From Anisus vortex (lineage: Eukaryota; Mollusca; Gastropoda; Planorbidae), in NCBI GenBank assembly GCA_949126835.1, contig OX421505.1, positions 7,634,587 to 7,698,586 of the forward strand: a stretch of DNA of 64,000 nt. The letters run 5' to 3'. How positions within the stretch are numbered: position 1 is the first letter of the stretch; each line of letters opens with the position of its first letter. This document shows, piece after piece, positions 4,505 through 56,068 of the stretch. The translations under genes were made by a program, and so were the position numbers. The notes beneath the pieces were generated by a model. That model saw only the letters and a program-made list of their open reading frames with translations, searched no databases and was not told the origin of the DNA.

Positions 4505-4698
4505 CGGTTCAATTTCACAAAGTCCGCTTGCAATTAGAGATCAGCCATCGGCCTTGTTACTCTGGCGGATACGGGGCTTTCGAGACGTACGTGGAGATCT
4601 CTGGCTTGGCGGCGGTGGAGAGGCAGAGTATAGAATCTGAAATCGCTCCGCCTATAGAGGTGTACTTGCAGTCAGAGAGATACGGAACGCGAACTTTG
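4505..4698 (+). CDS. Gene A exon: distal domain, first half
   Basis: The acceptor follows a long T-rich tract ending TTTTTATAG; the donor is GTAATG. It enters in phase 1 and leaves in phase 0. The translated segment contains a CYSGGYG motif and ends with IEVYLQSERYGTRTL. This aligns with gene B 22307-22485, which has CYDNGV at the matching point and VKIYLEPDNGHSYVV at its end. Matching phase and position show the two are paralogous. Confidence 0.75.
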
Positions 4699-7600
4699 GT
4701 AATGTATCAATTGCGGGCCTTTTAGGTATTGTCATAGTGGGCCTAAAGTGTCTCATTATATTGTCCAGCGCTCCACAAATTGTATTAGTCTTATCCGGTT
4801 ATTTTTCTACTTGTATTTAGCAATTTGGTTTTTTCCTATATGGAGAATTGGCATCTGGAAAGAGAAAAACAGGTCGCCCACGCCTCCGATACACAGATGT
4901 CTGCCAGAGGGACATGCGAGCAGCCGGCATAAACGCAAATGACTGGGAGTGGAAAGCAGAGGATCGATCCACCTGGCGCACTTTTGTCAGGGAAGGGGTA
5001 AAAAAATAGCAGAGAAAAGAAGGATGGGGGAGATTGTAGATAAAGGAGCTAGAAGAAAGGCGAAGAAAATGGAACGCACAGAACACGTGTGTAAAATCTG
5101 TGATAAAGACTGCCATTCGAGGATAGGCCTGCACATCCACACGGGAAAATGCAACCTCAATCCACGGTGATGCACCATCGTCTCGAAAGACGGAAGGATG
5201 CCGAAGATTTAGCAATTTGCTAAAATTAATTTAGCATATCTGATCCTGTAAAAAACAAATCACACATGCACATTATCACATCATGTTTTGAAGGTTGTGA
5301 CTGTTATATTTCAGATCGACCTATATGTAGTACAACGTACTATTCTAGGTTTTATGCTCCTCTCCATTGCGTTACTTAAAATCTAACGCCTATACCCCAT
5401 TACCATTCAACTTATTATCTCGAAAGTGAAATTTGGCCACCTTGTTATATGTTTAAGTTAACCCTTCCCGTACCGACCTACTTCTATCTATGCTGCCTTC
5501 AGTTCCGCTATATACGCGCCCGGGACTGTAAGGGTTAATATAACCATCGCCTCTGGTTACATTGACCGATCTTATATGTCTTATTAGAATAACACACGAG
5601 CAGTCCGGGCTTTTAAGTCCAGGATGTAACGTGTAAAGCGGCATGCCAAGAACCTATCTAAGAATAGCCACCCTTGTGTCACGCCCTATTCGGTACGGTT
5701 GGGCGCAATAAAAAAACATGCACTATTCTGTTTCTTCCCACCCGCTGATTCCCCCTCCCCCGAATCATTGACGTGGCGGCTTGCACTGTCGTCAGGTAGA
5801 ACACATCTCAGGTTCTAGGCCTGGACATCCAGAAACTGGGCTTGGCGAAACGGGCCATTGCGCACATTGCTTCAACCCCGCCGAGTCTCTGTGACATTTC
5901 GCCTGTGAATGAAATCTCGGACGCCTTAGCCCAATGAGTGTAATAGGATCGTACCGACGCCCGCACAACAATACTATTATTCACCAATATTGTTAGTGTA
6001 TAACATCAACTGGCAAAGTGTGTAAACCGCCGATACGTCCACACTAAGAGCACGCCCGCAATTTTGCGTATCGAGCGACGATCGTATCCCCTGCAGGCTC
6101 TCTTGTGGTTGATAAAAACAATCCTGGATATATAGGTCATTTCATTGTCAAACTGGGTGCAGTTGAAAACAGCGCCGGTGGGGGAAGGGGTCCATTTTTA
6201 TCTGTACAAGTATGTTGTTGTTGTTAGGAGAATATTTGTTTCCATAGTAAGTAAAGTACCCTTCGGACCAAAGTGATCATAGGGCCGGTGAAGCAGCGTT
6301 CACCAGTTTCTGTGGCCACGGCATACTAGGGGATGTGGGGCCAGCACAATGCCCAGCCGCCTTTACTTTACCCCAACTAATGTCAGGTTCCCATCAGAGC
6401 TGGGTAGACTCAGGGACACCCTCAAGTCCTGGAAAAAAATCCCGGCTTCACCAGGATTTGAACCCAGGACCCTCGGATCGCCAGTCGAACGCGCTGCCGC
6501 TCGGCTACCGTGCCCCATAGTACATGAAGTTAAAATGTGTGTACGACTATGTGTATTTTTGCTATTTGGACAGGTCTGCATACTTTATTGGTTGACCCCT
6601 AAAATGGAGAAAGGTCCGTGCACTTGGTCACCATCACACTTGGAAGTAAAGGAGAATGTGTACAGCCTGTTGGTGCAGTTGGTGCCAGGGGATGATATGA
6701 ACAACACAAGGCTAGTCGGCATTCAAAAAAGAGAGTACCTGACGTATACCGAATACTTTACGGATGTTTTGCGCGTCCAGCGTGAGTAGGGCAGTTGGAG
6801 ATGCAGGGTGGTGGACTTTCTGGGTGTGGGTGTGTGGGGGGATGGTGGTGGACTGTCAGTGTGGGGGGGGGGGGACGGGGCGGAAGACATATTTGGAGAA
6901 CACTCTGTTAATGTTATAATTGTTAATAGCAAACGTATCAGAAAGTTTCAAACCAGTTGAAACCGCTTGAAAGAAACGCACACAATTACTCTGTCCTTTA
7001 CTGTGTTATTTCATTTTTTGTTTCTTGAAGTGTTGGATAAGTTGGATTATCTATCCATATAACATCGGTCTGCTATTCTGATGGTCACATATTTATAAGC
7101 CAGGTATTAAAAACGACATTTTTTTAAATCATCGGAATTAAAATTTGTCTCTATGTCAACCAAACTCTATTAGATTAGAAAACTTTAGTTAGGAGATTAT
7201 AAAACACAGTTTGGTATTTTGCTGGCCTTTACAAGTGGAACGTTTATATTTTATTCAGTTTCATTCCTCGATTTCTTAAACAATATTAAAACATACAATA
7301 CATACGGTGACAGTCACTAAATACTATTCAATTTGATAGTATTTTTTTCAAGTATTACTAAGCTATAGTAAAAATAAAAAATATTTTGTCCTTCTGAACT
7401 AAGTATATTTGGAATAAATAAGATCGTTAAAATAACAAGACCTTATAATTTTGTTTGTAAAGTCTGAATCTGTTTATAATTAGTTATCACATCGCTAATT
7501 TTTAAAATGCTTTTATACAATTTCACTTGTCTGTTGCTCTCAAGAACAAACTTGTCCCTAATGTATCGCCCAAAGATCTTAAAGTCAGTTTAATTTAAAA

Positions 7601-10600
7601 ATATAACAAATATATCAGAGTACGATTTGCTATCTTGCATGTGAGTGCTATATACCCTGTTCTGAACTGGAATATAATGCATTGTTCTTTGTAGGGGAGG
7701 AAATGAGAGACATATAAAATGGCGATTTTTAATCATTAAAATCCAACATTTTTCTCATTTATCGTTTTCTAGCTAAGTCGAAATTTAACCTAACAATAGA
7801 CGGCCGACTGCAAGACATCTACGACTGCGTGTACGTTGAGCCCGTCGCACAGTTCATTTACGTGACGTTTTGCGCAAAGTTCCTCCAAAATCCCAACCTC
7901 TCACTATCTCTGAAGAACGAGACCTTTACGAGTGTTGCCGGAGAATGCGTCTCGCGAAATATCAGTATGGATCCCGAGCCTTTCGAAGTGCAGGCGATTT
8001 ACACGGATGATTGTTGTCAGTACGGGAGCGTTACTTGCGTCATCAGAAGTAAGAATTAGTCTTACAATGTTTTCTTACTTTTCAAGTTATTTTTTTTTCC
8101 TTTCTTTATTTAAAATGGCCTTATTGTCTGTTTTAGCCTTTTGGTAATGTAAAATAATTAAGTAGCTTTACTCTAATAAAGAACACCGACTTGTGGCGGC
8201 AAACAAACCAGGATCCCCTCGAACAGCAGATCGCCAGGCGAAAGTGGCGGAGGATTTGGGCACACCCTACGGAAACCCCTACCGGACTCACCCGACTGGC
8301 TCTGCTGTGGAACTCTCATGGGAAAAAGACGGGTCGGTCGCCCGAAGACCACCTGGAGACGCTCCTGCGAAGAAGAAATGACAAGTTGCAACCTTTCATG
8401 GGGTGAACTAAAATAAAGGCTGCCCAGAAACGAGTGCGCTGGAGAGCTGTTGCGGAGGCCCAATGTTCCATAAGGAACCAAAGGAACTAAGGGTACGAAG
8501 GGGAACATTCCGGACTTTGTCGTATTTCGTGCAGCATTGATCTTGAGAAATAAGAGTTCATTTAAATGTCCCGCAATACACAACTTTAAAAGGAGTCTAG
8601 TTTTATAAAGACTTTATTATAATACATTGCCAAATTATCCTTATGTGGATTCGTTAAGTCATACCTAATTAAGGACAATAACTTCTGTAACCATTGGGTC
8701 ATTAAGCTGGCGAAGTGTGCAAACACATGCAAAGATTGTTGCCCGGGGAAAGAGCCCATGAAAACTCGATGGGGCGGAAGAAATAGGCGCAAGGATACTC
8801 GTCTCGACAATCTGTCTGGATAAATAGGTCTATACTCTGATATTGTTACTACCGGGAGAAAGTTCGGATTTATGAGGTAAATGAGGTCATGCGTCCTCGA
8901 TAATAAGCAAAGCAACAAAAATAATTTACAGGTGAAATAAGTTTTCTGCATGTGCCTGCTGGAATCCTACATGCAGTGTGCCCCAGGCTTCATGACTCTG
9001 ACAGGATCTTGGACCCACATATTTTTGTTACACCCTGGTATCGATTGCCGGAATTATTTTTCTGTTTTAAAGAGAACAAGCTAAATTCCCTGCCGTTGCC
9101 AGGGATACCAATACATTAAATATAATAAAAATATATAATTAAATATAATTATTATTTACTGAAAACATTAAGGAAATTAATTAAAAAAATAATAATTGTA
9201 ATCAGGTTTAAAAAATGGCATGTCTTTTGTTATTTAACAAAACGTTCGTGATATTCCTGGCTGAGAATCAAGCACCCGTCTCCCGAATGCGTCTAAAAAA
9301 AATATTCGGTTACTGAAAACATTATTTTAGGAAAACTTGTAAGTCCTGAAATTATTTACAATCTTTTAGAAAAGTAATATTAGGAGGGGAAAAAAAGTAA
9401 CAAAAGTTACCATTCGGAAATCGAATCCAGGTCGTCCGCATGGCAGTCGGATACGCTAACCACTCTGCTAGGGAGGAAACATGCCTGAAGCGAGATTGCA
9501 AAGAATAAAAAGAATAATATAATAGACAATAATAGGCAATAATGTCACGTGTCTTTAAATTAACCAATACGGATCGGAATCCACACACACAGTCTACTTT
9601 ATATATATACAAGCTACATTGCCCGGCGTTGCCCGGGTGAAAAAAAAAGGACTGTCTGGGGTGCAGATAACACATTTATAAACTACACTTACTGAATACT
9701 TTTATGAAAGTAAATACATATTGTAATAGGGTAAAAAAAATAGTCAAATATTTTTATTTAACAAAATCTATATTGCCTATAGATTTACAATTACAATGTC
9801 TTTTGTTTTTAAAAGTTTGAAAAATTAATTGTCGAAAAAAAAAAGTATAGTCTAACTGGAGAATCGAACCCTGGTCGCCCGTATAGCAGTCCACTACGTT
9901 TACCACTGAGCTATCGAAGACACATGTTGATGTGAAAAATTATTAGACGGTATATTGGGCTAGGCCTAGATAGGTCAGTGACACACGTGTTTTCAAATTG
10001 ACCAATGGGGATCCTCGCGGGGCTTAGCACTGTCTTTTTATATATATAGATATATATATATATATTTACACAGATTTAAAAATAAGAAAATTGTGGGAAT
10101 ATATATAAAAATATATATATTATAAGCTCGATCAAGGTCAGTGTGGCTGGCGTACCGAAGGTCCTGGGTTCGAATCCCGGTGTAGTCTAGGATGTGTTCT
10201 CGGTTCTCGAGGATGTCCCTGAGTCTAACTCCGCTCTGATGGGTACCTGAATTATGGTGATGGGGGGGGGGGGCAATGGCTTACTCTGGATTAGTGCTGT
10301 TGGGACATCGACATCACATGCTCTAAGCCGTTCTGTGCCGAATGAACAAAAACGTGTTTTTCTTGCACCCGCCCTTACACATCGACGCACTACAGATATT
10401 GGTCCTCGCGATTGTTTATTTGAAAAGGCTTCAATGTGTATGTGCGGAATAGGCAGACGACTGGGGTTCAGTGCACGGTGGCCGAGGGGCAGCGCGTACG
10501 TGTGGTGTACCAAAGGTCCTGGGTTCGAATTGTAATGAAGGCTAGAATTTATTTTTTTAGGACTCGAGGGTGTCCGTGAGTCTACCCAGCTTCTTTATAT

Positions 10601-12439
10601 TATTCGGGGTCAAGTAAAGGCGGCTGGGCATTGTGCTGGGCACATACTCCCTTAGTATGCCTTTGCCACAGAAACTGGGGTGAACGCAGTTTTGCCGCCC
10701 TATGGATTAATATGGTCCAACGCGTCCTTTAATTTACTTTACTACTTATGCTACATCTAGAGGTAGTGGATAAGATAACAATGGCCATTTCTCATAGCGC
10801 TTCTATCCATGCTATTTAATTTGGCATGCTCAGTGCGCTCTTGGTGTGAAATGCAGTGGTAGATGCATTAGCCAAAGAGAAAGTTCTTAAAAATATTTTA
10901 AAAGATTCTCTTGTCCCAGATTCTCTCAGTGTTTGAGGTAAACTGTTCTATAAACAAGGCGCCACTGATTCAAATGAGCGCACTCCCAGGTACTTCTTTT
11001 TGTGTCCAGCCAAACGGGGTGTTTTGAGGCGTGACTGCGAGCGGTAGTGGAGCGGTTGTTAACAGAGCAAGCAGGTACAATGCGGGGGATGAGAAGAATA
11101 CGCCCAATATATATTTTACTCACACATACATAGTCACTGGCCACTCTTGACCATAAATAGATTATGCACTTGTGTGAGCTTAGTGTTATTGTGTTGTTGT
11201 TTTTTTATGTTTAACATTCAATTTATAATGTATTTACACTATCTAAAAATACAGCTTTTGAAATAGAAATAGAGATCCTGGAGCCAAACTATACGTCTCT
11301 CGTTTGGCTGATATTTCTGGCTCCTGCCCTTTTAGGAATCATTGTTTCTGCCCATTGTAAGTATAAAGCAATACGTCTCAATCTGTCTACACTATATACC
11401 TTTTTCCTTTCATGGGATCCGTTTATGTGACAACTGCTGTAGAAAATGCAAGCATACCCGTAAATGGGACATGTTGGCCGAAACGGCAGCGAGTTCGGCT
11501 GGCGTACCGAAGGTCCTGGGTTCGAATCCCTGTGAAGGCTAGGATGTGTTCTCGGGTCTCGAGGATGTCCCTGAGTCTACTCGGCTCTGTTGGGTACCTG
11601 ACTTATGGTGAGGGGAGGGGGGAGGGGGGTAAAGTAAAGGCTGCTGTGCATTGTGTCATTGAATTCCATGTTGAAATAACTTTCACTATCATTCTACCGC
11701 ACAAGCAATACATTCCATGATGTGTATTAGTTTCTGGTCGCATACTTTGTAAACAGTGGTTGTTATTGGCTTTATTTGTTTTCTAAGGATCTTGTTTTGT
11801 GGGTAATTACCCTGAGCCCTATTGCGCTGGCTATCTCATGTATGCCCACCGTCTTCTGTTGGACATAATTATAAGACTTAGACATCCCTGAAAGGGTCCG
11901 AAAGGTAGTTGGTAGGTAGTTGGTGTAGATCAGGAATCGGCAACCTACGCCACGCGTGCCAGACTTGGCTTGATATTCAAAGGCATGCGGGAGACCTCCA
12001 AAATGGCAATTAAAGTCTTTTCTACAAGAGATTGAGTGCTAGAGCAGGTTACATTTTAGTCTTTCGGCACGCTGAAAAAATTAAAAATCTTACTTGGGCA
12101 CAAAATTTTATGTAAAGTTTGCCGACCCCTGTTGTAGATGAGTCTACTTTCAAATTCTCGTAGAGGGATTAAAATCACATATACAAGTTTCTGTGAAATG
12201 CTGTAGTGTAGGATATCTTAGTGTAAACTTATGTTTGTTTAATTGATGGGTCCATTAACTTTTTTGTTTTTGTTTTGCTTCAGATGGATATAATGTGTAC
12301 ATGGAAAAGTGTAAGTGCATTTAGTTTTTTTTAGTTTTGTCACTAGGTAATCATGATCCTAGATGGTAGATGTGTAGTGTCGGACCAACATATTATGATG
12401 TCTGCTGTCATGTACACGGACACATACAGAGACAAAAAC

Positions 12440-12514
<75 letters not shown>

Positions 12515-15115
12515 TAGCGAAATAAAGAAAGGGTAGTTTGTTAGATAATTCAATGAGCTCGGTTGAATTATTGATGGTCACAATAAGTGTATGCATACAT
12601 TATTGGGATAGGCAGATAGATAGATAAATACGTAGATAGCTTGTAAACGTGTAGGTATTTTAGGTACGTAGTTAGGTACGTATGTGTGTAGCTAGATAGA
12701 ACGAACACGTTAGTTGGCATGTAAGTACATGAGTACGAAGGTAGGTAGATACGAAACATACGAGTAGATAAACACACAGACAGTAAGACGAATAGCCACA
12801 TAGGCGGATATATACTTTTAGAGTTAGAGAGAAGACAGAAAGACTGAAAAATAGATATAAAGATAGATAGGTAGATATAAATGACATTAAGACATATAGA
12901 CATATAAGACATATAAGACATAAAGGCCTATTGACAAATTCTTATCTAATTTAGTTAAAAATAAACACATGCCACATGATAAAAAAAACTGTTAATTATT
13001 TTAAACTGATTAATCTTTCAGACGGTAAAATAGAGTCCCAAGACGCCCCAACATTTACTGGAGATATGTGTAAGTAAACAACTTGTATGTAGCCCTGTAT
13101 ATTTTGGTATGTGTCTTGATTCAGGCAAAGTAAAGATTGACAAGGCTTTTGGCTTGCAACATCACTTTCTTCAAAACAAAACACAGTCCTAGGGGGATAA
13201 ACCCATCGTTATATATATATATTTTTTGGTATTTTATAGACGTATTGTGGTTTTAAAACGTTTGCAAGGTTGTGCGTTAACAAGCGGGTGGACGTGAGGC
13301 AGCGCGTTCGGCTGTCTTACTGAAGGTCCTGGGTTCGAATTTTCGTATCCTGTTGCAGGCTAGGAATTTTCTCCCAGGTCTGGAGGGTGTGCCTGAGTCT
13401 GCCCAGGTTTGATGGGTACCTGACCTTAGTTTGGTTAAACTAAAGGCAGATGTGCATAGTGCTGGCCACACAATCACCTAATATGCCGTGTCCACAGAAA
13501 CTGGTGAACGCTGCTTCACAGGATCAATTCGCTCCGACAGTATAGCCTACTTCACTATACACCAACGCAAGAGTCATTCTACACTTCTTCTACTTCTGAT
13601 ACATCAAACAGTTCTTCTACGAAATATGGCCTCTTTACCACTTAACCAATTACCCCATCTAAGTACTTTGCACATTGTATCAATGGTGGCAGTTTGCTGA
13701 GATAAGAAAAATCGCTTGTAGTCACTGCGAGAATATTACATGTACCCTTCTGTGTTCGAGTGGCTGTGGCAAATGGAAGAGTTTAAACATCCGGGTCACA
13801 CATACTCCAAAAGGGGACTTGTGTATCCTACTGGCCACGCTAACTTCTTGTCACAATCGTAAAATTGCCTGGTAGACCTAGGCAACAAATCCTATCCATT
13901 ATCCTATTATATACACATGAGGAAATACTATAGGTATGTTAATATATTATTATATATTTATATATTCGTAGCTGAAGTCGATCCTGTACCGTCAGAACAC
14001 CCTAGTAAGTATTCTCTTCGCCTTAGTAGTATGGTATCTAGGTTACAGTTTGCAACTGGCGGGTCTACCCATCAATCGATAAATCCAAATAGCGGCAAGG
14101 AATCGATGTCCGAAATTCAATAACAATATTTATAACTTCAGGAAACAAGATGACCGCTCTTAATTTTGTTTACCGTGTTCCTTTTATCGCTCTAAAAAAA
14201 AATTTGTATTGAATCTATTCTCACATTTTTTTCCTATTTTCAAATATTTGTATTGAATCTATTATCACATTTTTTTCCTATTTTCAAATATTTGTATTGA
14301 ATCTATTAGCACATGTTTTCCCTATTTTTAAATACTTATATTGAATTTATTCTCTCATATTTCCCCATTTTTAAACAATTGTATTAAATCTATTCTCACA
14401 TTTTTTTCCTATTTTTTTAAACATTTGTATTGAATCTATTCTCGCAATTTTTCCCTATTTTTAAACATTTGTATTGAATGTATTCACACATGTTTTCCCT
14501 ATTTTTAAACAATTGTTAATTCTTTTATTTTTTTTCCCTATTTATTAAACATTTGTAATGAATCTATTCTCACATTTTTTACCCAATTGTTTAACATTTG
14601 TATTGAATCTATTTTCACACTTTTAACCACTTTTGAAACATTTGTATTAAACCTATTCTCGCAATTCGTTCTCTCTATTTAAACATTTTTATTAAAGCTA
14701 TTCTCACAATTTTTTTCTCTTTGTAAACATTTGTATTGAATCTATTCCCACAATTTTCTTTCTTTTTTTTTTTAGATTTATGTAAACCTTTTTATTAAAT
14801 CTATCTTTACTATTTTTCTCTTTCACTCTCTATGTAAACAACTGAGATGAATCTATTCCCACAACTTCCGTTTTTTTAAATCTATGTAAACAGATGAGGA
14901 CTCTAGTGGTGGTAAGTAAAACCATTCTTGCCGATGCCGTTTTTGTTTTTCTTGGCAAATTGAGAGTTACATATCACTATTTATTCCTTCAGTATTTTAA
15001 TAAATTTACTTTTCATCTCGTCACAACAATAAAGTATCAAGTTTAAAATTTGATTTTTTTCATAGAAAGCAAGAGTGATTCACCTCTGTTAATATTTGTA
15101 ACAGCAATAAGTTAA
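4505..15115 (+). CDS. Gene A: single-pass receptor-like protein, cysteine-rich/Ig-like (multi-exon, 5' end missing)
   Basis: Gene model built by hand. Exons: 4505-4698, 6574-6781, 7773-8048, 11255-11356, 12284-12310, 13022-13069, 13972-14004, 14894-14911, 15066-15115. Every internal exon border has GT/AG, and all introns are phase 1 except the phase-0 intron at 4698/6574. The product has a two-exon membrane-distal domain, a four-cysteine Ig-like domain with N-glycosylation sequons (NLT, NET, NIS), one membrane span and a tail of about 60 residues. AATAAA signals follow at 15133 and 15163. The family is unknown to me; the same architecture recurs downstream in genes B and C. Role as a surface receptor is inference from topology. 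The signal-peptide exon was not found. Confidence 0.72.
4833..5200 (+). pseudogene. Non-LTR retrotransposon C-terminal fragment
   Basis: The plus-strand frame reads GELASGKRKTGRPRLRYTDV, then a WRTFVREGV segment, then a C-terminal zinc-finger-like CKICDKDCHSRIGLHIH followed by C. This is the usual end of an invertebrate non-LTR reverse transcriptase (GRP-rich linker, DR.WR helix, terminal CxxC/H finger). The fragment is severely 5' truncated and lies in the first intron of gene A on the same strand. Confidence 0.8.
5458..5538. mobile_element. 81-bp TTAA-flanked miniature inverted-repeat element
   Basis: The segment is bounded by TTAA at both ends and starts TTAACCCTTCCCGTACC, ending GTAAGGGTTAA, so the termini are inverted (TTAACCCTT/AAGGGTTAA). 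A second, reverse-oriented copy lies at 58910-58990 and is nearly identical over its whole length. TTAA targets are typical of piggyBac and Kolobok elements. Confidence 0.8.
5740..5945. repeat. Fragment of a dispersed repeat (GTGGCGGCTTGCACTGTCG family)
   Basis: Segments such as GACGTGGCGGCTTGCACTG, GGCCTGGACATCCAG and GCGCACATTGCTTC recur at 61060-61315, 59205-59590 and 23900-24190. The copies share order but are diverged. No coding content is visible. Confidence 0.55.
6247..6520 (-). mobile_element. tRNA-headed SINE, near full length
   Basis: Read on the minus strand, it begins with a tRNA-like head (GGTAGCCGAGCGGCAGCGCG, then a B-box GGGTTCAAATCC), continues with a body containing GGGGTAAAGTAAAGGCGGCT and GGCCACAGAAACTGGTGAAC, and ends in AGGGTACTTTACTT. 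It is the most complete minus-strand copy and serves as a reference for the family. It ends 50 bp before gene A exon 6574. Confidence 0.85.
6574..6781 (+). CDS. Gene A exon: distal domain, second half
   Basis: The acceptor is TATTTGGACAG and the donor is GTGAGTAGG; it enters in phase 0 and leaves in phase 1. The peptide starts VCILYWLTPKMEKGPC and contains LVPGDDMNNTRLV, which lines up with RMRSEMNNSKVV in gene B exon 23108-23297. Together with 4505-4698 it forms a domain of about 130 residues absent from gene C. Confidence 0.78.
6785..7772. other. Intron, AT-rich; no feature beyond a poly-G tract
   Basis: A G-rich tract lies near 6870-6880. The rest is AT-rich with no repeat family I recognise and no exon-like frame. 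Confidence 0.5.
7773..8048 (+). CDS. Gene A exon: four-cysteine Ig-like domain
   Basis: A phase-1/phase-1 exon of 276 nt, acceptor CGTTTTCTAG, donor GTAAGAATT. Conserved pattern: a first cysteine (YDCVYVEP), a second (VTFCAKF), a strand LSLSLKNET, a third cysteine (GECVSRN) and a last one (SVTCVI). It shares this spacing with gene B exons at 24781 and 25406 and gene C exon 50095. Unlike a standard Ig domain it has no obvious core tryptophan, so the Ig-like label is tentative. Sequons NLT, NET and NIS suggest a glycosylated ectodomain. Confidence 0.82.
8180..8480 (+). pseudogene. Non-LTR retrotransposon C-terminal fragment
   Basis: The frame reads DLWRQTNQDPLEQQIARRKW, then RRIWAHPTETPTGLTRLALL, LRRRND, a stop, then QKRVRWRAVAEAQCS. 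This is the familiar ELWRxTNQxPIxxQIxxRKWxWIGHTLRK end of non-LTR reverse transcriptases. It is truncated, with stops, and lies in an intron of gene A. Confidence 0.8.
9070..9607 (-). mobile_element. tRNA-headed element with CCGGGCAACG hairpin end, diverged copy
   Basis: On the minus strand a tRNA-like segment (TAGCAGAGTGGTTAGCGTAT, B-box region GGATTCGATTTCC) lies near 9405-9470. It is followed by AT-rich body and a degenerate hairpin near 9070-9105 (CCCTGGCAACGGCAGGG when reversed). It matches the better-preserved copy immediately to the right and the plus-strand copy at 15978-16435. Confidence 0.6.
9608..10050 (-). mobile_element. tRNA-headed element with CCGGGCAACGCCGGG hairpin end
   Basis: Reversed, it runs from a TATATAAAAAGACAGTGC-like start, through CCCATTGGTCAATTTG, a tRNA-like part (ATAGCTCAGTGGTAAACGTA and GGGTTCGATTCTCC), to a hairpin ACCCGGGCAACGCCGGGCAA at 9620-9640. 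The plus-strand copy at 15978-16435 has the same order. The two minus copies here are head-to-tail. The paired AT-rich start and GC hairpin end recall Helitron-like termini, but I cannot prove that class. Confidence 0.65.
10135..10270 (+). mobile_element. SINE fragment (tRNA head)
   Basis: GGCTGGCGTACCGAAGGTCC followed by GGGTTCGAATCCCGG and TGTCCCTGAGTCTA matches the head and first body segment of the SINE family; it stops at a G tract. Confidence 0.75.
10478..10740 (+). mobile_element. tRNA-headed SINE, near full length
   Basis: Head GCACGGTGGCCGAGGGGCAG, B-box GGGTTCGAATTG, body GTAAAGGCGGCTGGGCATTG and CACAGAAACTGGGGTGAAC, ending TTTACTTTACT. Confidence 0.8.
10780..11090 (-). pseudogene. 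CR1/L2-like LINE 3' fragment
   Basis: On the minus strand a frame reads PVWLDTKRSTWECAHLNQWR, equivalent to the GHRKKTFGVRAFEAVAPVLW region of the LINE at 32935-35810. The 3' untranslated part (GCGCTATGAGAAATGG, AGCGCACTGAGCATGC reversed) also matches. It is 5' truncated and lies in the intron before the gene A membrane exon. Confidence 0.7.
11255..11356 (+). CDS. Gene A exon: stalk and transmembrane helix
   Basis: Acceptor AAATACAG, donor GTAAGTATA, phase 1 on both sides. The peptide has an acidic stalk (EIEIEILEPNYT) followed by a hydrophobic run SLVWLIFLAPALLGIIVSA, long enough to cross the membrane. It takes the same place as gene B exon 40258-40404 and gene C exon 51210-51308. Confidence 0.78.
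11465..11660 (+). mobile_element. SINE fragment (tRNA head plus partial body)
   Basis: Head GTTGGCCGAAACGGCAGCGA, B-box GGGTTCGAATCCC, body GTAAAGTAAAGGCTGCTGTG; the 3' part is missing. Confidence 0.78.
11931..12131. mobile_element. Non-autonomous hAT element, 201 bp
   Basis: The ends read CAGGAATCGGCAACC and GTTTGCCGACCCCTG, and the flanks are 8-bp near-duplicates GTGTAGAT (11923) and TTGTAGAT (12132). Internal GGCACGC and GGCACA motifs match the copies at 49842-50033 and 38739-39833. The 8-bp duplication and CAGGGGTC-type ends identify hAT. Confidence 0.85.
12284..12310 (+). CDS. Gene A micro-exon: juxtamembrane
   Basis: A 27-nt phase-1/phase-1 exon between TGCTTCAG and GTAAGTGC, coding YGYNVYMEK. 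It corresponds to the 30-nt exons 41010-41039 (B) and 51916-51945 (C). The three tyrosines could be phosphorylation sites, but that is speculation. Confidence 0.68.
12446..12512. repeat. (GA)n microsatellite
   Basis: About 33 uninterrupted GA units. Downstream (12600-12920) is a loose TAGATA/GTAGGTA-rich stretch that creates stop-free minus-strand frames with no protein meaning. Confidence 0.95.
13022..13069 (+). CDS. Gene A micro-exon: tail
   Basis: A 48-nt phase-1/phase-1 exon, acceptor TAATCTTTCAG, donor GTAAGTAAA, coding YGKIESQDAPTFTGDM. It corresponds by order to 42059-42130 in B (72 nt) and 52752-52808 in C (57 nt), though the sequence is not conserved. Confidence 0.62.
13284..13540 (+). 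mobile_element. tRNA-headed SINE
   Basis: Head GGCAGCGCGTTCGGCTGTC, B-box GGGTTCGAATT, body and 3' segment CCACAGAAACTGGTGAACGC present; ends near AATTCGCTCCGAC. Confidence 0.8.
13972..14004 (+). CDS. Gene A micro-exon: tail
   Basis: A 33-nt phase-1/phase-1 exon, acceptor TATTCGTAG, donor GTAAGTATT, coding SEVDPVPSEHP. It has the same length as gene B exon 43073-43105, whose donor (A|GTAAGTAT) is also identical. Confidence 0.62.
14195..14893. repeat. Imperfect tandem array leading into a gene A acceptor
   Basis: About fourteen units of roughly 43-60 bp share the core AAACATTTGTATTGAATCTATTC followed by CACA and a T-rich run. The last units drift to TATGTAAACAACTGAGATGA and TATGTAAACAG, where the AG is the acceptor of the next micro-exon. 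The array is a polypyrimidine-rich intron expansion. Confidence 0.8.
14894..14911 (+). CDS. Gene A micro-exon: tail (18 nt)
   Basis: An 18-nt phase-1/phase-1 exon, ATGTAAACAG acceptor and GTAAGTAAA donor, coding NEDSSG. Gene B (43451-43465, SESTA) and gene C (56054-56068, PSGSS) have 15-nt serine-rich exons in the same place. Such a tiny exon is weak alone; phase and paralogous position support it. Confidence 0.55.
15066..15115 (+). CDS. Gene A terminal exon (predicted)
   Basis: Acceptor TTTTTTTCATAG; the phase-1 frame reads ESKSDSPLLIFVTAIS then TAA at 15113-15115. Polyadenylation signals AATAAA lie at 15133 and 15163. A different last exon further downstream cannot be excluded. Confidence 0.5.
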
Positions 15116-15132
15116 CACAAATATAACGAAAA

Positions 15133-15168
15133 AATAAAAATAATAAGAAAATTACCTACACAAATAAA
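15133..15168 (+). terminator. Candidate polyadenylation signals of gene A
   Basis: Two AATAAA hexamers, 18 and 48 nt after the predicted stop codon. AATAAA is common by chance in AT-rich DNA, so support comes mainly from position. Confidence 0.4.
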
Positions 15169-15373
15169 ATTAAATAATGGGTTCATACCATTAATTTGTC
15201 CAGGCATTTAGTAATGGCACTTCTATCGTTTTTTATATTTTTTATATTTTTATTTTGATGTTTTTTTTAATTATACATTTCATTGAATTATTTATAAACA
15301 GTCGTGCTTATAAAAAAAAGTATCGATTGTCCTTTTTCTTCTTCTTATATATATTAATAATGATATATTTATC

Positions 15374-15960
15374 GTCAGTGGCGTATGTAGGCATGTTACA
15401 CATGTTCCTATGGAACATGGGCCGCTTTAAAAGGGGCCCCCACACATCACATAATTTATTTTGTTTTAACTTTTTTTTTGGTGGGGGTGCAGTTAGAATA
15501 GTGCTTTAACATTAGTCATATTAGTCATAATATAGAGACTGAACAGGACTAACAAATACTGCAAAATATATTGTGAATGAGAATTCGCATTGGATTGTTC
15601 ACTGACACTGATACACTGTAGGCCTGCATGGTTGTTCATACATGAGTTTTCAAACGAGCAACTTAAATTAAATGAAGTGAAATACCAAATTAGCAGTCAG
15701 AGTCAGGCAGTGTGGGCTACTGGTTATAATTCGGCATCAGCAACATTGTACACAGTCTAATACAGCAATGTCGGAAGTCGTGGGCGAGGCCACGAGGGGC
15801 CCCGACACCAATTTGGAAAACAGGACTCCCACAATCCTAAATACGGCCCTATTTATCGTTTTTAATCAAGGGTGGACACCGTTTATCGTTATTGTTCTAT
15901 TAAATGAATTTAGTACAACCAGACGGGCCAAACGATCTGAAAATCTATGTACATAATTAA
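15374..15960. other. Possible hAT element end (CAGTGGCGTA) and unclassified sequence
   Basis: CAGTGGCGTATGTAGG at 15376 resembles the inverted form of the hAT end TAGCTACGCCACTG at 40200, and GGGGCCCCCACA and GAGGGGCCCCGACACC stretches follow. A matching opposite end was not found. Confidence 0.3.
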
Positions 15961-15977
15961 TACAATTAATCTCTCTA

Positions 15978-16435: not shown

Positions 16436-16439
16436 ATAT

Positions 16440-17535: not shown

Positions 17536-17536
17536 A

Positions 17537-21265: not shown

Positions 21266-21324
21266 ATAAGTGACAAGGAAAGTGTTTTTTATGTTTTTCT
21301 GAGCTTTGCAACAGATTGTTATTG

Positions 21325-22306: not shown

Positions 22307-22485
22307 GCATTACAATTCCCAACGACGGAGTCACCGTCACTCACCGTTGCTATGACAACGGCGTCGTGAGCCACAAGGACGTGATGAGAATCGCCGGGTG
22401 CATAGTCCGCGGAGGCTTCCTCAAAGGCAGCTGGTCAGGCCTTGTGAAGATCTACCTGGAGCCGGACAACGGACATAGCTATGTG
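22307..22485 (+). CDS. Gene B exon: distal domain, first half
   Basis: Acceptor CTGACTTTCGCAG, donor GTCAGTAT; phase 1 in, phase 0 out, as in gene A 4505-4698. Key residues are CYDNG, IAGCIV and the closing VKIYLEPDNGHSYVV. Base composition is clearly more GC-rich than the introns, as expected of coding DNA. The weaker donor (GTCAGT) is the main uncertainty. Confidence 0.8.
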
Positions 22486-40400: not shown

Positions 40401-40677
40401 GCAGGTAATTTTGAAATCGTATTGGAAAAAAAATTAATTTCATTGAATCAAAGCTAAATATATGAACGAAATTGCATTTGAATATATATTCGCGTTTTAA
40501 TATAGTGTTAGTTATTTTGATTTTGAGCAAATATTGATATGGACATTAACACAGTTTCTGTATATTTTTTTTGCATAGTAAATCGTTAACTAAAAAAGTC
40601 CAAAACGGCCGCCATTTTCATGGCAATCATCAGAAAAACAGTTTGTTCAACATATTTGTACTAGGACGTCTCAATGC

Positions 40678-49102: not shown

Positions 49103-49230
49103 ATCGGAGCTGGATAGACTCAGGGACGCACTCGAGTCTAGGGAAAAATATTTTAGCCTTCGCCAGGATTCGAACACATGACCTTAGGTACGCCAGTCGA
49201 ACGCGCTGCCGGCTTGGTCACCATGCCCCC
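49103..49230 (-). mobile_element. SINE fragment abutting gene C start codon
   Basis: Reversed tRNA head and first body part: GCTGGATAGACTCAGGGACG, CAGGATTCGAACACATGACC, GTACGCCAGTCGAACGCGCT. Its last bases (GGTCACCATGCCCCC) touch the ATG of the predicted gene C signal exon. Confidence 0.8.
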
Positions 49231-49333
49231 ATGAGTCGCTTAATCTGTAACAATGTCTGTTTCAGCATATTATGTCAGGACCACATCAGCGTATGCTTCT
49301 TTTGCCTGTCCATCACACTGGTCACTGGTCAAG
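49231..49333 (+). CDS. Gene C exon 1: signal peptide (predicted)
   Basis: ATG at 49231, donor GTAAGCTT after 103 nt, leaving phase 1 to match the next exon. The hydrophobic stretch ISVCFFCLSITLVTG suits a signal peptide, cleaved near TGQ/GD. A competing reading uses the AG at 49264 as acceptor, but that would enter in phase 2. Start choice therefore rests on phase. Confidence 0.5.
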
Positions 49334-52300
49334 GTAAGCTTTATACCATGTCAATGAGTTATACGGATGACTTGAAGACTTTTGATGGTCATTTGACTAA
49401 AAGGTATACCAGTAAACATTTTAAGTTTAATTGACTAACACCTTAAGACAGACAATGACGGATTCCCGGGTAAATTGAGTGGATGGCTAGATACATGGTC
49501 CGTTTGGCGAATCAGTGAATGGAATGGTTGTTGGATGGATAAGTTGATGGATGTGTAGATTGGTGAAAATAGATAGATAGTTTAATAGATGAATGAGTGG
49601 TAGGTGTATGCTAAATGAATGGATTGGTGAAGCTGTGGATGCATTGAGGATTGATGATAAATGGATAGATGATGTGATGAATGGATGGAATAGGAATAAT
49701 GATGCTGAATGATATAATTATAAATTAATTTATTTAACTATAAACTGTCGTAATGTAACAGATAGCATGAATAATCTTTATCCTGCTTATATAAGTGCAT
49801 TATACATAACATGAGCAAAGGGACACAACTATAGTGTATGGCAGGGGTCGGCAACCTTTTGAAAATAGTGTGCCAAAGTAGGATTTGTAATTCATTCAGG
49901 GCACCTAGAGAATAAAATGTATCCTGTTCATGCACTCAATTTCTTGTAGACAAGACTTGAATTACCTTTTTGTGGGTCTTTCGCGTGCCGTTGAAAATTA
50001 CTCAGCGTGCGTGCCGTAGGTTGCCGACACCTGGTGTACGGTATGGATGAGTTAAAAGTCAAAACCTTTTTACCATTGTATCCCTTGTTTGCAGGTGACC
50101 AGGACGTGGTCAGCTTCAAGGCAGGGGAACTGGCCATCAGCGGCCTGGAATGCCCGGTGAAGCTGCCCTTGGGCTCCGTGCACGTGTTCACGGCCTGCGT
50201 GGCGGTGTCGTACTACACCCACATCAGCTTGTCGGTAAACGACGACCACGTCTACCCGTCACCGAGGCCGTGCGTCAGCAGGGAGATCCAGCTGACCTCT
50301 GCTTCCACGGCCTTCAGCGTGGAGGTCAGCAACGCCTCCAGGGTTGAGTCGCCGAGCACATTGCTTTTCGGTTGCACCGTACAGTGTGAGTAGCCATCCG
50401 CCGAGAAACGGGGAGAGATTGCTAGTAAAAAGTAAAGTAAAGTATTCGTCTTCGGACCAAACCGATCATGGGGCTGGTGAAGCAGAGTTCACCACTTTCT
50501 AAGGCCACGGCATACGAGGGGATGTGTGGCCAGCACAATGCCCAGCCGCCTTTACTTTACCCCAAACTAGTGTCAGGTACCCATCCTAGCCTGCATCACA
50601 AGAGAAATCATACTCTTATGAGTATGTTAAATACGATTCACTTCCTTCTTGCGCTACTTTTATCATATAATACAGTCAATATGTTTTGTTTTTGTTCCTA
50701 AATATTGCCAGCATATAATTACTGAGATGCGTCACGGTGACCTAGCGGTAGCGCGTTCCACTGGCACGGTGAAGGCCAGGATCTGCTTTCATCCCTGACT
50801 CGATGTTCCTGAGTCTACCCCAGCTCTTAATTGTAACTGAAATTCGTCTGGGCTAGGGGAGAAGAAGCGGGTTGGGGGTAAAGTAATGGCGGCTGGACAT
50901 TGTGATGGCCACACATCCCCTGTGATCTATAATTTGGTCCGACGGGTACTTTTCATTATTATTACTCAGGCAATTTACAGTGGAATTTTAGTTTTACAAG
51001 CCTTATTATGTGCGTTTTTATTAACTTCTTTGTTTTTTTTGTTTTTTTTCCTGACTATCTTGGTTTCAAAAGGCAACTCGGAAGGCAAAAGAAAAAAATA
51101 CATAGAAAGGATTTATAAAAAAAACAAAAAAAAAAACACGTATTTTTGTTTCGTTTGTTTAATTTACCTATCATTGAATTTTATTTGTTTTATTTTCTGT
51201 ATTCAACAGCCTATGAAGAGTCTGTGAAAGTTCCCGCTGAGTATAAAACCGAATGGACTTTACCGATGATTGTAACTGGACTGATTATTTCCGTTCCCAT
51301 GGCTACAGGTAAAACACATATGATATTTCTTCACATTCACCTATCCCATAACCAGAGTGAGGGGCGAGGATCATTGGGGCACCATGTTTTGATAGTTGTA
51401 CAATTGTATGATATGATATTTCTTCACCTTCACCTATCCCATAACCAGAGTGAGGGGCGAGGATCATTGGGGCACCATGTTTTGATAGTTGTACAATTGT
51501 ATGATATGATATTATAAATGTATTTATACATACCACGTGGTATAAGAATTAATGTTATCATTATATGAATCGGTCTTATTCTTCTTTTTTTTATCTGTCT
51601 TTCAATAGATAACATTTTTTTTTTATTTGATGCTACTTGTAAATAAGAAAAAATATTATCCAGTTCAAAAACATAATAATAGTATGAGGCCTGTTTTTGT
51701 TTTAGAAATTATATATTAGTTCTTTGTTATTTTGACACGTTGGTGGAGTAATGGTCTGGTTTAGGGCTTGTTGATATATTTTTTTTATTATCATTGTCGA
51801 AACAATTTATTTTGGCTTATAGACAGGGTGGATACCCACTCATTAACTAAGGCCATACTTGCTTATCGAAAAGATATTATACTATTTCAATGCTAATGTT
51901 ATTTCTGTTTTACAGGTGCATTTCTTTATCTATTCGACAGACCTAGTAAGTATTATAAACTACTGATATCTTTGATTTGTTATTTTCTTTTAAAGTGTAG
52001 AATTTACGTCGGATAACTATGCTTCATTATTTTGTGCAAGTTTTTCTTTCCTTTACTTTATACTTACACACAAGTTTAGCTGTACAACAAAATCTAAAGA
52101 TATAAGAACAATAAAATGGATACAAGAGAAAAATGACAACAACGTTATCAAAAAGGCTCTATATAACCTTCGATGTTGATGAGCCGGAAATTCAACAATT
52201 CAATTCAATTCAATTCAACAATGCACCAGACTGCACACCAATACATCAGTTTGCACACCAATACATCAGTTTGCACACCAATACACCAGCTTGCACACCA

Positions 52301-55300
52301 ATACACCAGCTTGCACACCAATACATCAGCTTGCACACCAATACACCAGCTTGCACACCAATACATCAGATTGCAAACCAATACACAAGCTTGCACACCA
52401 ATACATCAGATTGCACACCAATACACCAGCTTGCACACAATACACCAGCTTGCACACCAATGCATCAGATTGCACACCAATAAACCAGCTTGCACACCAA
52501 TACATCAGATTGCACACCAATACACCAGCTTGCACACCAATACATCAGCTTGCACACCAATGCACCGGCTTGCACACCAATACACCAGCTTGCACACCAA
52601 TACATCAGCTTGCACACCAATACATCAGCTTGCACACCAATACACCGGCTTGCACACCAATACATCAACTTGCACACCAATACACCAGCTTGCACACCAA
52701 TACACCAAATAACAAGCTGATGTGTTGGTTGCTTCATTTTTTTTTTTACAGATACAACCACTGCCCATGCCCGTGGTCGAGCAGCAAGTATCAATAGTAC
52801 TGATTCACGTAAGTAGTTTCATAAGGTTCAATTCTAGATACTATATGGGCTTACTATTTAACGCATCACTTAGTGCTTTGACAGGGGCCAAGTGTGCTGG
52901 AGCTTTGTGCTATAGAGTCTTAGAAGTGGTGGATTCAGTTGTTTTTTTTCCTGCTCTTTCTTAAAGACTCTCTGTTCCACTAACTCCCCCCCCCCCTCAC
53001 TGTATTGATGTATATCTTTTGTATTATTTAGTCTATTTTTATCTGTAGTCAACCTGTTGCATTGCTCAGATAATTATAAAAGTAGACACTTCAATATCGC
53101 TGTTCCGCGCATGTCAAATGGGGTCAATTTATAGCCATGTAATTTTTGCAACACATTTAATGGAGTCTGTTAAAATATAGTCTAACACAATGGACCATAG
53201 AACTGAGTATTTAAGTCAAACCACAAACATCCACACATCAATTGATTAAAAAAAAATAACTTTTCTAAACTGTGTCATTAATTTTATGTTAAGATCGTTT
53301 TTTTTCATAAAAAATTAGGATTCATTAACAAGGTAAGTTTAAAGTGCTAAAATTAATATAAAGCGTTCATAAGCGGAAATAGTTAATCTTATTTGATAAA
53401 ATATATTATCTATACTCAATTAATTTACTAATTTCATTAATGCCTGATCATGCCTGATTTAGTTATGAATTTTTTAGAGCAGTCACTGTCTATGTTTATT
53501 AGAACATTTTTGTCAACCGACTACTTCCGTTCCGCTACTTTGTTTATTTATACAAAACATTAAAAAGTGTAATCGCAACTTTGTTTAAGCAAACGTACTC
53601 TGCTAGTTTTATAAGTTTAAAATGAATGAATAATTCCTTTTTATATACCGCAGACCTGCCAACCCTTCCGATTTTCTCGGAATTATACGGATTTTTCACC
53701 CCTCATTCCGACAAAGCCCTTAAAATTCCGATTTTGGGCAATTTTTTATTTTTATTTTTTTTCCGTCCGGACTGTCGATAGTAAAGCCACTTCAGTTATT
53801 TTTCATTATACCGTAGGCCTAGGCTAATATTTTGATAGCCAAACCTGGTTTTTACGAAACGTTTTCCATGGACCATGGTGCCAAAGTCCCATTACAACTT
53901 ATTTTCATTTAAAAAATGTAGCGATTTCAAAAATAATCTGATATAAAAAAAATAAAAAAAAACAAACACCGAATCTCTAGGTCTAGGACTCTAGGTCTAG
54001 GCCTACCGATGCAATGCCATATTCATATAAACTAGCCATATTAATGATTAAGCCTACGGTAGGCTTAATCATTAATATGGCCTACCGAATTACCGGTATT
54101 CGCTTTTGTAAAAAATACAATTTTGCGTGACATCTGATTTTCTTGGAAAGCGATACATTTTTAGCTCTAGGCTTACATTTCTTTACTATAAATGTAAACG
54201 CATATTACTCTTATACTGACCATTGAAAAACAAATTAGGAATAGGCCTTTTACTATAATAAGGAAAAATACATTTTTTTAGCCAAAGTAACTACGGAAAA
54301 TATTGTATAAAAAATACCTAGGCCTAGCCTATAGCATAAGTATATTTAGCCTATCATGTTGCTCAATTATCTAGTACTAGGTTAAATAGGTATGGGAGTA
54401 TAGGCCATATACGGTATAAATATGTTAAGGCCTGCTACTAGCATTTTTAGTAAGTCTACTAGTTACTATTACTATTTAGGCCTTCTACTAGGCTATTGAC
54501 TATAATACTATAGACTAACTATAGGCTATAGTATAGACCTAGAGTCTGTATTAACAGTTTTTAGCTTTATAACTTGACCTATTGATTTTCTTTAAAGTTG
54601 AATACACAGATATTAATTAAAACTTAAAACTAATTACATTGACATTAATAACTAACAATACTAGTTATATTCTTTCTAATTGAAAATAAGCCTACAGAAC
54701 TTTTCTTGGGACGTTGGCAGGTCTGATACCGGTATTATTTATCACTGGAAAGGGCTTGAAAAGAGGATTCCAATGGTATATCATTTATTAAAATCGGATT
54801 AGAAATAAAAAAGTTTTGAATTTTTAAGTAGTGTAGACAATTAGACTAACAGTTATTGTTAAAGTTAAGGTTTCAAGAGGGTGACAACATGTCTTCAATA
54901 TTAATCTTGTTTTTAAATCATATCGTTTAAGACCCACAAAAACATAATTAAAAAACAACAAAATACAACACTAAATGCAAAAACATGAATAAATGTTAGC
55001 CACGTTTATTGAAAAAAAAAACGCTTTATATATAAGAAATATTATTAATAAAAGAAATACGTTTGCCGACCCGCCAAAAAGTTTTTACGAAAAAAGAAAT
55101 ATATAAAAAAACTTACATTTACATAAAATACATAGATCAGTGCTATATTAAAAGTTAATTAATCTACTTCCGGTGCAAAGGTTACAAAAAAACTTAAATC
55201 ACAAAAATGGCTGGGTTTCTCTTCTTTAAAAAACACCTTATTTCCAAGCGCTAAAAAATTTATATCTCCCCTCCCTGTTGACCTATAAATACAAATGAGG

Positions 55301-56068
55301 TGGCATTTAAAAGATCTCATCTAGTTCTATCTAACAGTGTAGGTTTTTAGGCTAAATTCTTAATATGAAATTTTTATTGAAGTCGCTAATAAAAGACAAA
55401 ACAAACTTGCTTTATCCCTTATCCGAGTGGCATCCGGCGTGGAATGGGTTGCCGGAACAAACCAGGACAACCAGTATTTTAACATCACTTAAAACACTAA
55501 TTTTTAAAAAAATTCAAGATTAGACTTAGACCATGGATCAGCGTAGGACGCAATAATCTACTTTATAGAAGGGGCGTCTCTAATATATAAGATAATTTTG
55601 CCCACTTATTAACAGAAGCTTCTTTTTGCTTTGCTTGAGACAACCAACTGTGATTCTTATTCCTAATCCTAGTAATTCTATCTATTATTCTCATATTATA
55701 TATACAATTATATGGATATAACAGTCAATGACGGATTCCCGTCTAAATTAAGTAGATAGCTAGATAGACAGATAGATACATGCATACGCACATTGGAAAC
55801 ATTAATATCATCAGTCTATCTATTTAGATAGGCTATCTATGTAGGATAATAATAGGTTATGAAAATGCTGATATAAGCATAAATACAGTTAGGTATTTGC
55901 ACACCAATGCACTAATTCATTCATACATTTATGCTTTATTGATACATAGATTATTGTATCTTACGTTAATAAAAAGGCCTTCTATAATCTTCGATGTTGA
56001 TGGGCCGGAAATACAACAATTCAATTCAATATTTTGTTATAATTGTTTTACAGCTTCTGGGAGTTCAT
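49231..56068 (+). CDS. Gene C: short single-pass receptor-like protein with one Ig-like domain (3' end uncertain)
   Basis: Exons 49231-49333 (signal peptide), 50095-50385, 51210-51308, 51916-51945, 52752-52808, 56054-56068; last exon not firmly placed. Every intron is phase 1. It has the signal exon missing from A and B, one four-cysteine domain, a membrane exon and the parallel small exons. It lacks the two-exon distal domain. Intron lengths are short (0.6-0.8 kb near the membrane exons) apart from 52809-56053. The family is unknown; type I membrane topology is predicted from signal peptide plus one span. Confidence 0.7.
49842..50033. mobile_element. Non-autonomous hAT element, 192 bp
   Basis: CAGGGGTCGGCAACC ... 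GGTTGCCGACACCTG with 8-bp duplications GTGTATGG (49834) and GTGTACGG (50034). It ends 61 bp before the gene C Ig-like exon. Confidence 0.9.
50095..50385 (+). CDS. Gene C exon: four-cysteine Ig-like domain
   Basis: Acceptor CCCTTGTTTGCAG, donor GTGAGTAG, phase 1/1, 291 nt, GC-rich. Pattern: GLECPVKL, VFTACVAV, ISLSVNDDH, RPCVSRE, FGCTVQC. ISLSVNDD echoes FTVSLNDD of gene B and CVSR echoes CVSRN of gene A. Sequon NAS. Confidence 0.85.
50430..50600 (-). mobile_element. SINE fragment (3' end and body)
   Basis: GTATTCGTCTTCGGACCAAA, GAGTTCACCACTTTCTAAGG and CCGCCTTTACTTTACCCC; tRNA head missing. Confidence 0.75.
50730..50960 (+). mobile_element. tRNA-headed SINE
   Basis: Head GTCACGGTGACCTAGCGGTA, degenerate B-box, body TAAAGTAATGGCGGCTGGAC, end TTTGGTCCGACGGGTACTTT; a stretch between is lost. 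Confidence 0.7.
51210..51308 (+). CDS. Gene C exon: stalk and transmembrane helix
   Basis: Acceptor CTGTATTCAACAG, donor GTAAAACA, phase 1/1, 99 nt. Short charged stalk (YEESVKVPAEYKTE) then WTLPMIVTGLIISVPMAT, continued by GAFLYLF in the next exon. Confidence 0.78.
51319..51506. repeat. 93-bp tandem duplication next to a splice donor
   Basis: Two nearly identical copies starting ATGATATTTCTTCAC and including GAGTGAGGGGCGAGGATCAT, offset by 93 bp, beginning about 11 bp after the membrane-exon donor. Confidence 0.93.
51916..51945 (+). CDS. Gene C micro-exon: end of membrane helix
   Basis: 30 nt, acceptor TTCTGTTTTACAG, donor GTAAGTATT, phase 1/1, coding GAFLYLFDRP. Confidence 0.7.
52140..52218 (+). 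repeat. LINE 3' tail with (AATTC)n
   Basis: ACCTTCGATGTTGATGAGCC, GGAAATTCAACAATTCAATT. A second copy at 55965-56035 shares CTTCGATGTTGATG and the AATTC tail. Confidence 0.6.
52221..52712. repeat. 20-bp tandem array, about 24 units, next to gene C acceptor
   Basis: Unit CTTGCACACCAATACACCAG (with TCAG variants); one unit is 19 bp (near 52434). It ends 39 bp before the exon at 52752. Because 20 is not a multiple of three and the unit lacks stop codons in several frames, long open frames of 116-179 codons appear in all plus frames; they are not genes. Confidence 0.95.
52752..52808 (+). CDS. Gene C exon: tail
   Basis: 57 nt, acceptor TTTTTTTTTTACAG, donor GTAAGTAG, phase 1/1, coding NTTTAHARGRAASINSTDS. 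Threonine/serine-rich with two arginines. Confidence 0.65.
53651..54725. mobile_element. Inverted-repeat DNA element (CAGACCTGCCAAC ends)
   Basis: Left CAGACCTGCCAAC and right GTTGGCAGGTCTG are perfect 13-bp inverted repeats; ATACCG is repeated at both flanks (53645, 54726). 1,075 bp, AT-rich, no transposase. CAG...CTG ends suggest hAT-like origin. Confidence 0.75.
54035..54081. repeat. Perfect 23-bp inverted repeat with one-base loop
   Basis: Arms GCCATATTAATGATTAAGCC+TAC (54035-54057) and its exact complement (54059-54081) around G at 54058. It lies inside the element above. Confidence 0.95.
54726..55415. other. Gene C intron sequence, no feature recognised
   Basis: AT-rich; no exon or repeat family identified. 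Confidence 0.45.
55420..55595 (+). repeat. LINE 3' end (WNGLPEQTR family)
   Basis: GGCATCCGGCGTGGAATGGG, GTTGCCGGAACAAACCAGGA, CATGGATCAGCGTAGGACGC, AGAAGGGGCGTCTCTAATAT; the tail ATAAGATAA follows. Confidence 0.7.
55965..56035 (+). repeat. LINE 3' tail with (AATTC)n
   Basis: Shares GGCCTTCTATAATCTTCGAT and AACAATTCAATTCAAT with 52140-52218; just upstream of the last placed gene C exon. Confidence 0.6.
56054..56068 (+). CDS. Gene C micro-exon: tail (15 nt)
   Basis: 15 nt between TTGTTTTACAG and GTAAGTAGC, phase 1/1, coding PSGSS. Paired with the 15-18-nt exons of A and B. Confidence 0.5.

Follow-up and report, generated by a model that had tools for sequence, protein, structure and literature searches.

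In the snail Biomphalaria, few genetic factors influence schistosome resistance as strongly as clusters of genes for single-pass membrane proteins that lack known domains (PMC7494358). The PTC2 genes of Biomphalaria glabrata are clustered single-pass genes of 166-530 codons with the membrane segment displaced from the N-terminus; the paralogs are less than 50% similar, contain no known domains and in many cases group around genes 1 and 2 (PMC7494358, PMC11426442), and no similar sequence is reported from outside gastropods (PMC7494358). In the Guadeloupe resistance complex (GRC), four of the seven grctm genes contain FN3 domains (PMC4361660), and Biomphalaria sudanica has clusters of hyperdiverse single-pass genes, some of them with immunoglobulin (Ig), FN3 or C-type lectin domains (PMC10875847). 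The one paper found that mentions PTC2, Biomphalaria and AlphaFold together, on Bulinus, models FREP-type proteins (PMC8861042), and the cnidarian Hydractinia has the Alr system, a 41-gene family of clustered Ig-fold recognition receptors (PMC11999971). Here we analyze a stretch of 64,000 nucleotides of DNA from the snail Anisus vortex (the window), whose plus strand yields three gene models, A, B and C. With moderate confidence we read them as a diversifying recognition system, a tandem array in which three or more paralogous genes, now diverged, encode type-I single-pass receptors with Ig-like modules. The models share phase-1/1 cassettes, namely a four-cysteine module of about 92 residues, a membrane exon and small tail exons (Table 1), and they would represent three separate transcripts. 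The four-cysteine module occurs once in A, twice in B and once in C. The models of A and B, but not that of C, further possess a distal domain encoded by two exons on either side of a phase-0 intron. The description of the locus in an earlier note, as modular single-pass receptor-like paralogs that differ by gain or loss of modules, is supported.

The spliced model of gene B, comprising 407 residues, was built before any homolog was known. A search with this model against 5.8 billion proteins recovered a single match at E-values up to 10 (from 1850 candidates), the hypothetical protein Bpfe_004475 of Biomphalaria pfeifferi, which stands for a cluster of 8 member sequences, with an E-value of 2.6e-110 and 45% identity over 98% of the query (180 of 401 positions identical, 3 gaps). 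The match spans the distal domain through tail exon 3, and both proteins have the distal domain, two Ig-like modules, stalk, membrane segment and tail exons 1-3 in the same order; they differ in that the first ~50 residues of Bpfe_004475, which is annotated as partial, have no match in the B model. Identical residues number 64/122 in the distal domain, 43/92 in module 1, 37/91 in module 2, 10/26 in the stalk and 10/24 in tail exon 2, with the extremes being the least-kept membrane segment plus tail exon 1 (5/30) and the best-kept tail exon 3 (8 of the 10 residues compared). As the spliced model matches a protein of another snail through tail exon 3, the membrane exon lying beyond a large retrotransposon and tail exons 1-3 can be taken as real, and gene B as a whole is, on the strength of this homology, a real gene with a supported exon structure. 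A G-protein-coupled receptor reading of exon 40258-40404 was ruled out, given that homology makes it the stalk and membrane exon of B. A five-row profile, through one row of which gene C entered the protein searches, was used to look for further members and again recovered only Bpfe_004475 (1 of 3332 candidates).

Pairwise comparisons of the six modules, four from the window and two from Bpfe_004475, showed that 12 of the 15 pairs score above all 1000 shuffles. The three weaker pairs all involve the C module, which was equalled in 1, 6 and 26 of 1000 shuffles when paired with module 1 of B, the A module and module 1 of Bpfe_004475, respectively. The A module aligns with module 2 of B without a gap across the whole exon (score 82), and this exon-to-exon correspondence together with the homolog rules out a reading of the modules as chance open reading frames (ORFs). 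All four window modules retain the four cysteines. Three of them are 20-26% identical to module 2 of B; with exon lengths of 276, 276, 279 and 291 bp, this upholds the earlier claim that the ectodomain has diverged well beyond intron phase and exon size. The distal domains of A and B are likewise related (0 of 1000 shuffles, z 6.0), with the phase-0 intron in both sitting just before a [VI]-C pair; the distal domain of A against that of Bpfe_004475 is weak (48 of 1000). We do not claim kinship between distal domains and modules: the best of 18 comparisons, that of the Bpfe_004475 distal domain with the A module, was reached by 3 of 1000 shuffles, and the next by 37, 43 and 84. The single modules of A and C score higher against the membrane-proximal module 2 than against module 1, and therefore either B gained module 1 or A and C lost it. 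A weak tree of the modules places module 1 of B with module 1 of Bpfe_004475 (79), module 2 of B with module 2 of Bpfe_004475 (64) and the C module beside the latter (56), leaving the A module without a resolved place. Profiles of the three parts, run against 2839 ORF pieces from both strands, recovered the four modules and the two pairs of distal exons, which had themselves gone into building the profiles, and no further copy or relic in the window scored better than an E-value of 0.057.

The module exons were also recovered without reference to these alignments. A blind scan of the window for exons of 210-420 bp that are phase 1/1 and have acceptable splice sites yielded 82 candidates, which include, at exactly the same coordinates, the four open phase-1/1 domain exons named in the earlier note; the majority of the candidates other than the modules fall in retrotransposon frames. 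G+C content is higher in the exon than in its flanks for 10 of 12 exons tested, the exceptions being 6574-6781 and the membrane exon of A. Other parts of the previously proposed exon map had to be amended. The ends of all four distal-domain exons are now placed as in Table 1; A probably starts with a signal exon at 2583-2652, which has a strong donor and accounts for both hits of a scan upstream of A, and C probably starts with the one at 49231-49333. The proposed ATG of the latter lies at the border of a repeat copy (repeat at 49104-49217, similarity reaching 49233).

The AlphaFold2 model of module 2 of B has eight strands (predicted local distance difference test, pLDDT, 92; predicted template modelling score, pTM, 0.80), and the module is predicted to adopt an Ig-like beta sandwich; as such, its fold is not new. 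The structure search proposed earlier was performed for this module with Foldseek and VIA, and returned Ig domains, with FN3-like, PKD and further sandwiches scoring about as well. The tandem pair of Bpfe_004475 aligns with the tandem pairs of MAdCAM-1, VCAM-1, PECAM-1 and Fc receptors, among others. In strand order of the model, the shared cysteines would lie before and in strand B, at the start of strand E and in the last strand, with strand names and cysteine pairing being deduced from the model. The B-F cysteine pair and the strand C tryptophan of Ig domains are absent from all six aligned modules: there is no cysteine in the strand at 70-77 and no tryptophan at the strand at 41-46. A canonical Ig domain, initially guessed from the Y-x-C ending of the module, was ruled out, because that cysteine sits in the last strand of the model. 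Ten Pfam queries found no Ig family at E-values up to 10, where the HMMER filters drop most matches above ~0.1, and the Pfam scan found no FN3 family. A PDB search by sequence with the module profile gave no match; the best hits of one profile, a ribonuclease (E-value 0.056) and CD47 (E-value 0.8), were not used. Cysteine patterns of the ZP-N-like or cytokine-receptor-like type, which were also considered, were absent from the 50 structure matches listed, which does not exclude them. The distal domain has a pLDDT under 40 in the whole-protein model and is given no class here.

For the tails, the earlier proposal of parallel small exons stands for exons 1-3 of B, which the homolog supports, and is not confirmed for A and C under a control for phase and strand. 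Small symmetric phase-1 candidates in the tail regions number 5 on the plus versus 5 on the minus strand in A, 7 versus 1 in B and 6 versus 0 in C, and the other two phases on the plus strand give 6 and 3, 6 and 7, and 7 and 4 in A, B and C, respectively. As other phases give similar plus-strand counts, splice scores are by themselves no proof of the A and C tails. A motif of the form I-x-S-x-D, first noticed in B (ITSRD) and Bpfe_004475 (ISSKD), is found over the whole window in 3 of 37 plus-strand and 0 of 37 minus-strand candidates of 30-90 bp (3 of 104 and 0 of 116 under a looser cut), and each gene contributes one of the three, namely its second tail exon. The pYxxP motif is the docking consensus of Crk-type SH2 domains, and the YTGP of tail exon 3 of B fits it.

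Taken together, these features suggest that each protein would possess a signal peptide (candidate exons in A and C), an ectodomain, one membrane helix and a short tail assembled from tiny exons. The ectodomain would comprise one or two Ig-like modules with a non-classical four-cysteine pattern, preceded in A and B by one distal domain, and may bind parasite, microbial or self ligands, while the tail, with its I-x-S-x-D motif and, in B, GDVYTGP, may recruit intracellular partners. Since phase-1 introns bound the cassettes, modules could be added or dropped without breaking the frame, and arrays of this kind might diversify through such gain and loss. A recognition role for the receptors is likely, and we hypothesize that it is in immunity or self-recognition.

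Several observations weigh against the proposed receptor array. The gene A protein gave no match at E-values up to 10 (1898 candidates), and the case for A and C therefore depends on their kinship with B. Neither a last exon nor a polyA site was identified for A, B or C, and the 9 candidates for a signal exon of B are weak, with none convincing. The fold matches are not specific to the Ig superfamily. The tail candidates lack phase specificity, with those of A not exceeding the minus strand, and when the A and C tails are compared pairwise with B or the homolog, shuffles mostly score as high (307 to 3689 of 5000). Further, the I-x-S-x-D motif was defined after the sequences had been viewed, and A carries FTG at the position of the YTG of B, which disfavors a general role for YTGP docking.

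Three rival readings were considered. Partial decay of the cluster, with A, C or both being pseudogenes or remnants of a B-like gene, appears distinctly unlikely: the introns are filled with repeats and a 10-kb retrotransposon, C is without a distal domain, the last exons were not found and the tail exons of A and C are not established, all of which would suit decay, whereas in both A and C the module exon has an open frame, consensus splice sites and all four cysteines, and both genes have a membrane exon and a candidate for the signal exon. Another alternative, rather unlikely in our estimate, is that the family consists of developmental, neuronal or gamete adhesion receptors that play no part in immunity. 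It would agree with the whole-length homolog of B in another snail with its parts in the same order, and adhesion proteins, MAdCAM-1 and VCAM-1 among them, often carry Ig-like tandem pairs; yet an identity of 41-52% between the two snails in the distal domain and modules is low for a conserved adhesion receptor, as is that of the neighboring paralog modules to module 2 of B (both on uncalibrated rates), and the number of modules differs within the array.

The earlier note raised a link to the Biomphalaria resistance clusters as a hypothesis, and a Biomphalaria homolog of B does exist. The third alternative would place A, B and C in the gene families of the PTC2-type single-pass genes, which are associated with schistosome resistance in Biomphalaria. 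We regard it as unlikely, even though the models fit the printed PTC2 description where it is testable (PMC7494358). That description could also fit unrelated single-pass genes, the parts of the literature consulted gave no link of Bpfe_004475 to PTC2, and a word search of the main text of the B. pfeifferi genome paper (PMC10075465) found no PTC, GRC or TM1. The gene models of the proposed receptor array are collected in Table 1 along with the retrotransposon that lies in an intron of gene B.

Table 1. Features of the array in the window (positions in the 64,000-nucleotide stretch; phases given as start/end)
Feature	Positions	Strand	Phases	Length (bp)	Basis or remark
A candidate signal-peptide exon	2583..2652 (or from ATG 2592)	+	ends phase 1		
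A distal domain exon 1	4505..4698	+	1/0		frame and splice sites; aligns with B distal domain
A distal domain exon 2	6574..6781	+	0/1		begins V-C, B counterpart I-C
A Ig-like four-cysteine module	7773..8048	+	1/1	276	
A membrane exon	11255..11356	+	1/1	102	top hydrophobic exon listed for 8048-22000
A tail exon 1 (tentative)	12284..12310	+	1/1	27	splice-site score only, not above background
A tail exon 2 (tentative)	13022..13069	+	1/1	48	holds IESQD and FTG
A tail exon 3 (tentative)	13972..14004	+	1/1	33	length equals B tail exon 3
A tail exon 4 (tentative)	14894..14911	+	1/1	18	splice-site score
B distal domain exon 1	22307..22485	+	1/0		homolog alignment
B distal domain exon 2	23108..23297	+	0/1		homolog alignment
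B Ig-like module 1	24781..25059	+	1/1	279	homolog alignment
B Ig-like module 2, membrane-proximal	25406..25681	+	1/1	276	AlphaFold2 pLDDT 92
LTR retrotransposon, not in gene product	26935..37330	+			B intron, module 2 to membrane exon
B stalk and membrane exon	40258..40404	+	1/1	147	homolog alignment
B tail exon 1	41010..41039	+	1/1	30	homolog-supported
B tail exon 2	42059..42130	+	1/1	72	holds ITSRD; homolog-supported
B tail exon 3	43073..43105	+	1/1	33	conserved GDVYTGP
B tail exon 4 (tentative)	43451..43465	+	1/1	15	past end of partial homolog
C candidate signal-peptide exon	49231..49333	+	ends phase 1		top candidate upstream of C
C Ig-like module	50095..50385	+	1/1	291	
C membrane exon	51210..51308	+	1/1	99	read from sequence, missed by hydrophobic-exon scan
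C tail exon 1 (tentative)	51916..51945	+	1/1	30	
C tail exon 2 (tentative)	52752..52808	+	1/1	57	holds INSTD; overlaps end of 20-bp minisatellite
C possible further tail exon (tentative)	56054..56068	+	1/1	15	

The retrotransposon is flanked by long terminal repeats (LTRs) at 26935-27380 and 36884-37330, which are direct repeats with 99% identity. Its ORF at 30873-32984 matches the Pfam families rve (residues 15-111) and, following it, RVT_1 (426-583), an order reminiscent of Gmr1-like gypsy elements, and the preceding ORF matches SCAN and a retroviral protease (Pfam). Nested in this element on the minus strand (33044-35812) are pieces of a non-LTR retrotransposon, with an endonuclease domain at 34835-35812 and no Pfam family in the piece 33047-33805. 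A remnant of a hAT transposase dimerisation domain at 38388-38753 is barely over the Pfam cut-off. Tandem arrays are present at 549-989 (~64 bp), 14175-14776 (~44 bp), 21308-21657 (~23 bp), from 25678 onward (~29 bp) and at 52136-52797 (~20 bp); the 29-bp array starts right at the end of module 2 of B, and its unit includes the donor sequence of that exon. Near the tail of C, 52169-52210 and 55990-56031 each encode FDVD-x-PEIQQFNSI and are probably a repeated DNA element. Dispersed short repeats at 6248-6519, 20620-20891, 49104-49217 and 50450-50565 appear to be similar to short interspersed elements. A tRNA search and Rfam at the gathering threshold gave no match in the window.

The earlier note knew of no described family with this layout, and none was found in a limited literature search. 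The claim holds in that Pfam is blank and the sole homolog found is unnamed; it does not hold for the fold, which is known if the predicted Ig-like sandwich is correct, nor for the arrangement, since B. sudanica is described as having clusters of single-pass genes, part of which carry Ig or FN3 domains. Hence, clustered Ig-type single-pass snail genes are not new as such (PMC10875847). The family in A. vortex is unnamed, departs from the canonical Ig pattern and is arranged like the known snail resistance clusters. That its modules make up the ectodomains encoded by the single-pass genes without known domains in those clusters is a suggestion we hold to be quite unlikely. If true, it would make the resistance-cluster proteins Ig-fold receptors with non-classical cysteines and a shared short signaling tail. 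For a snail receptor family of this kind, a fold, a module map and a candidate tail motif would replace "no known domain" with targets for expression, binding assays and mutation, and would place an Ig-fold recognition array beside the FREPs.

As far as published descriptions permit comparison, the array shares with PTC2 of B. glabrata its occurrence as a snail single-pass cluster, an overlapping size, low similarity of paralogs and the lack of a known domain; the lengths of the A, B and C proteins are lower bounds, as their last exons are missing, and the models agree with the PTC2 description so far, a likeness of type that falls short of proving kinship. An association with resistance is known for PTC2 only. 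In B. sudanica the Ig and FN3 domains were recognized by annotation, whereas Pfam misses the A, B and C modules. The grctm genes of the GRC in B. glabrata are similarly clustered single-pass genes with a beta-rich ectodomain (PMC4361660), differing in that four of the seven have an FN3 domain detectable by sequence and three do not. The leukocyte receptors of the LILR/Fc-receptor type likewise have a tandem Ig-like ectodomain, with matches at the level of fold only; they have the canonical Ig cysteine pair absent from the snail modules, and neither sequence kinship nor an immunoreceptor tyrosine-based inhibitory motif (ITIM) was shown. The Alr receptors of Hydractinia have a single-pass layout, short tail exons and unusual cysteines; they differ in being cnidarian and in having V-set and I-set domains, and the likeness is again one of description. 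If the modules do build the snail resistance-cluster proteins, the array would represent a gastropod counterpart of the clustered leukocyte or allorecognition receptors.

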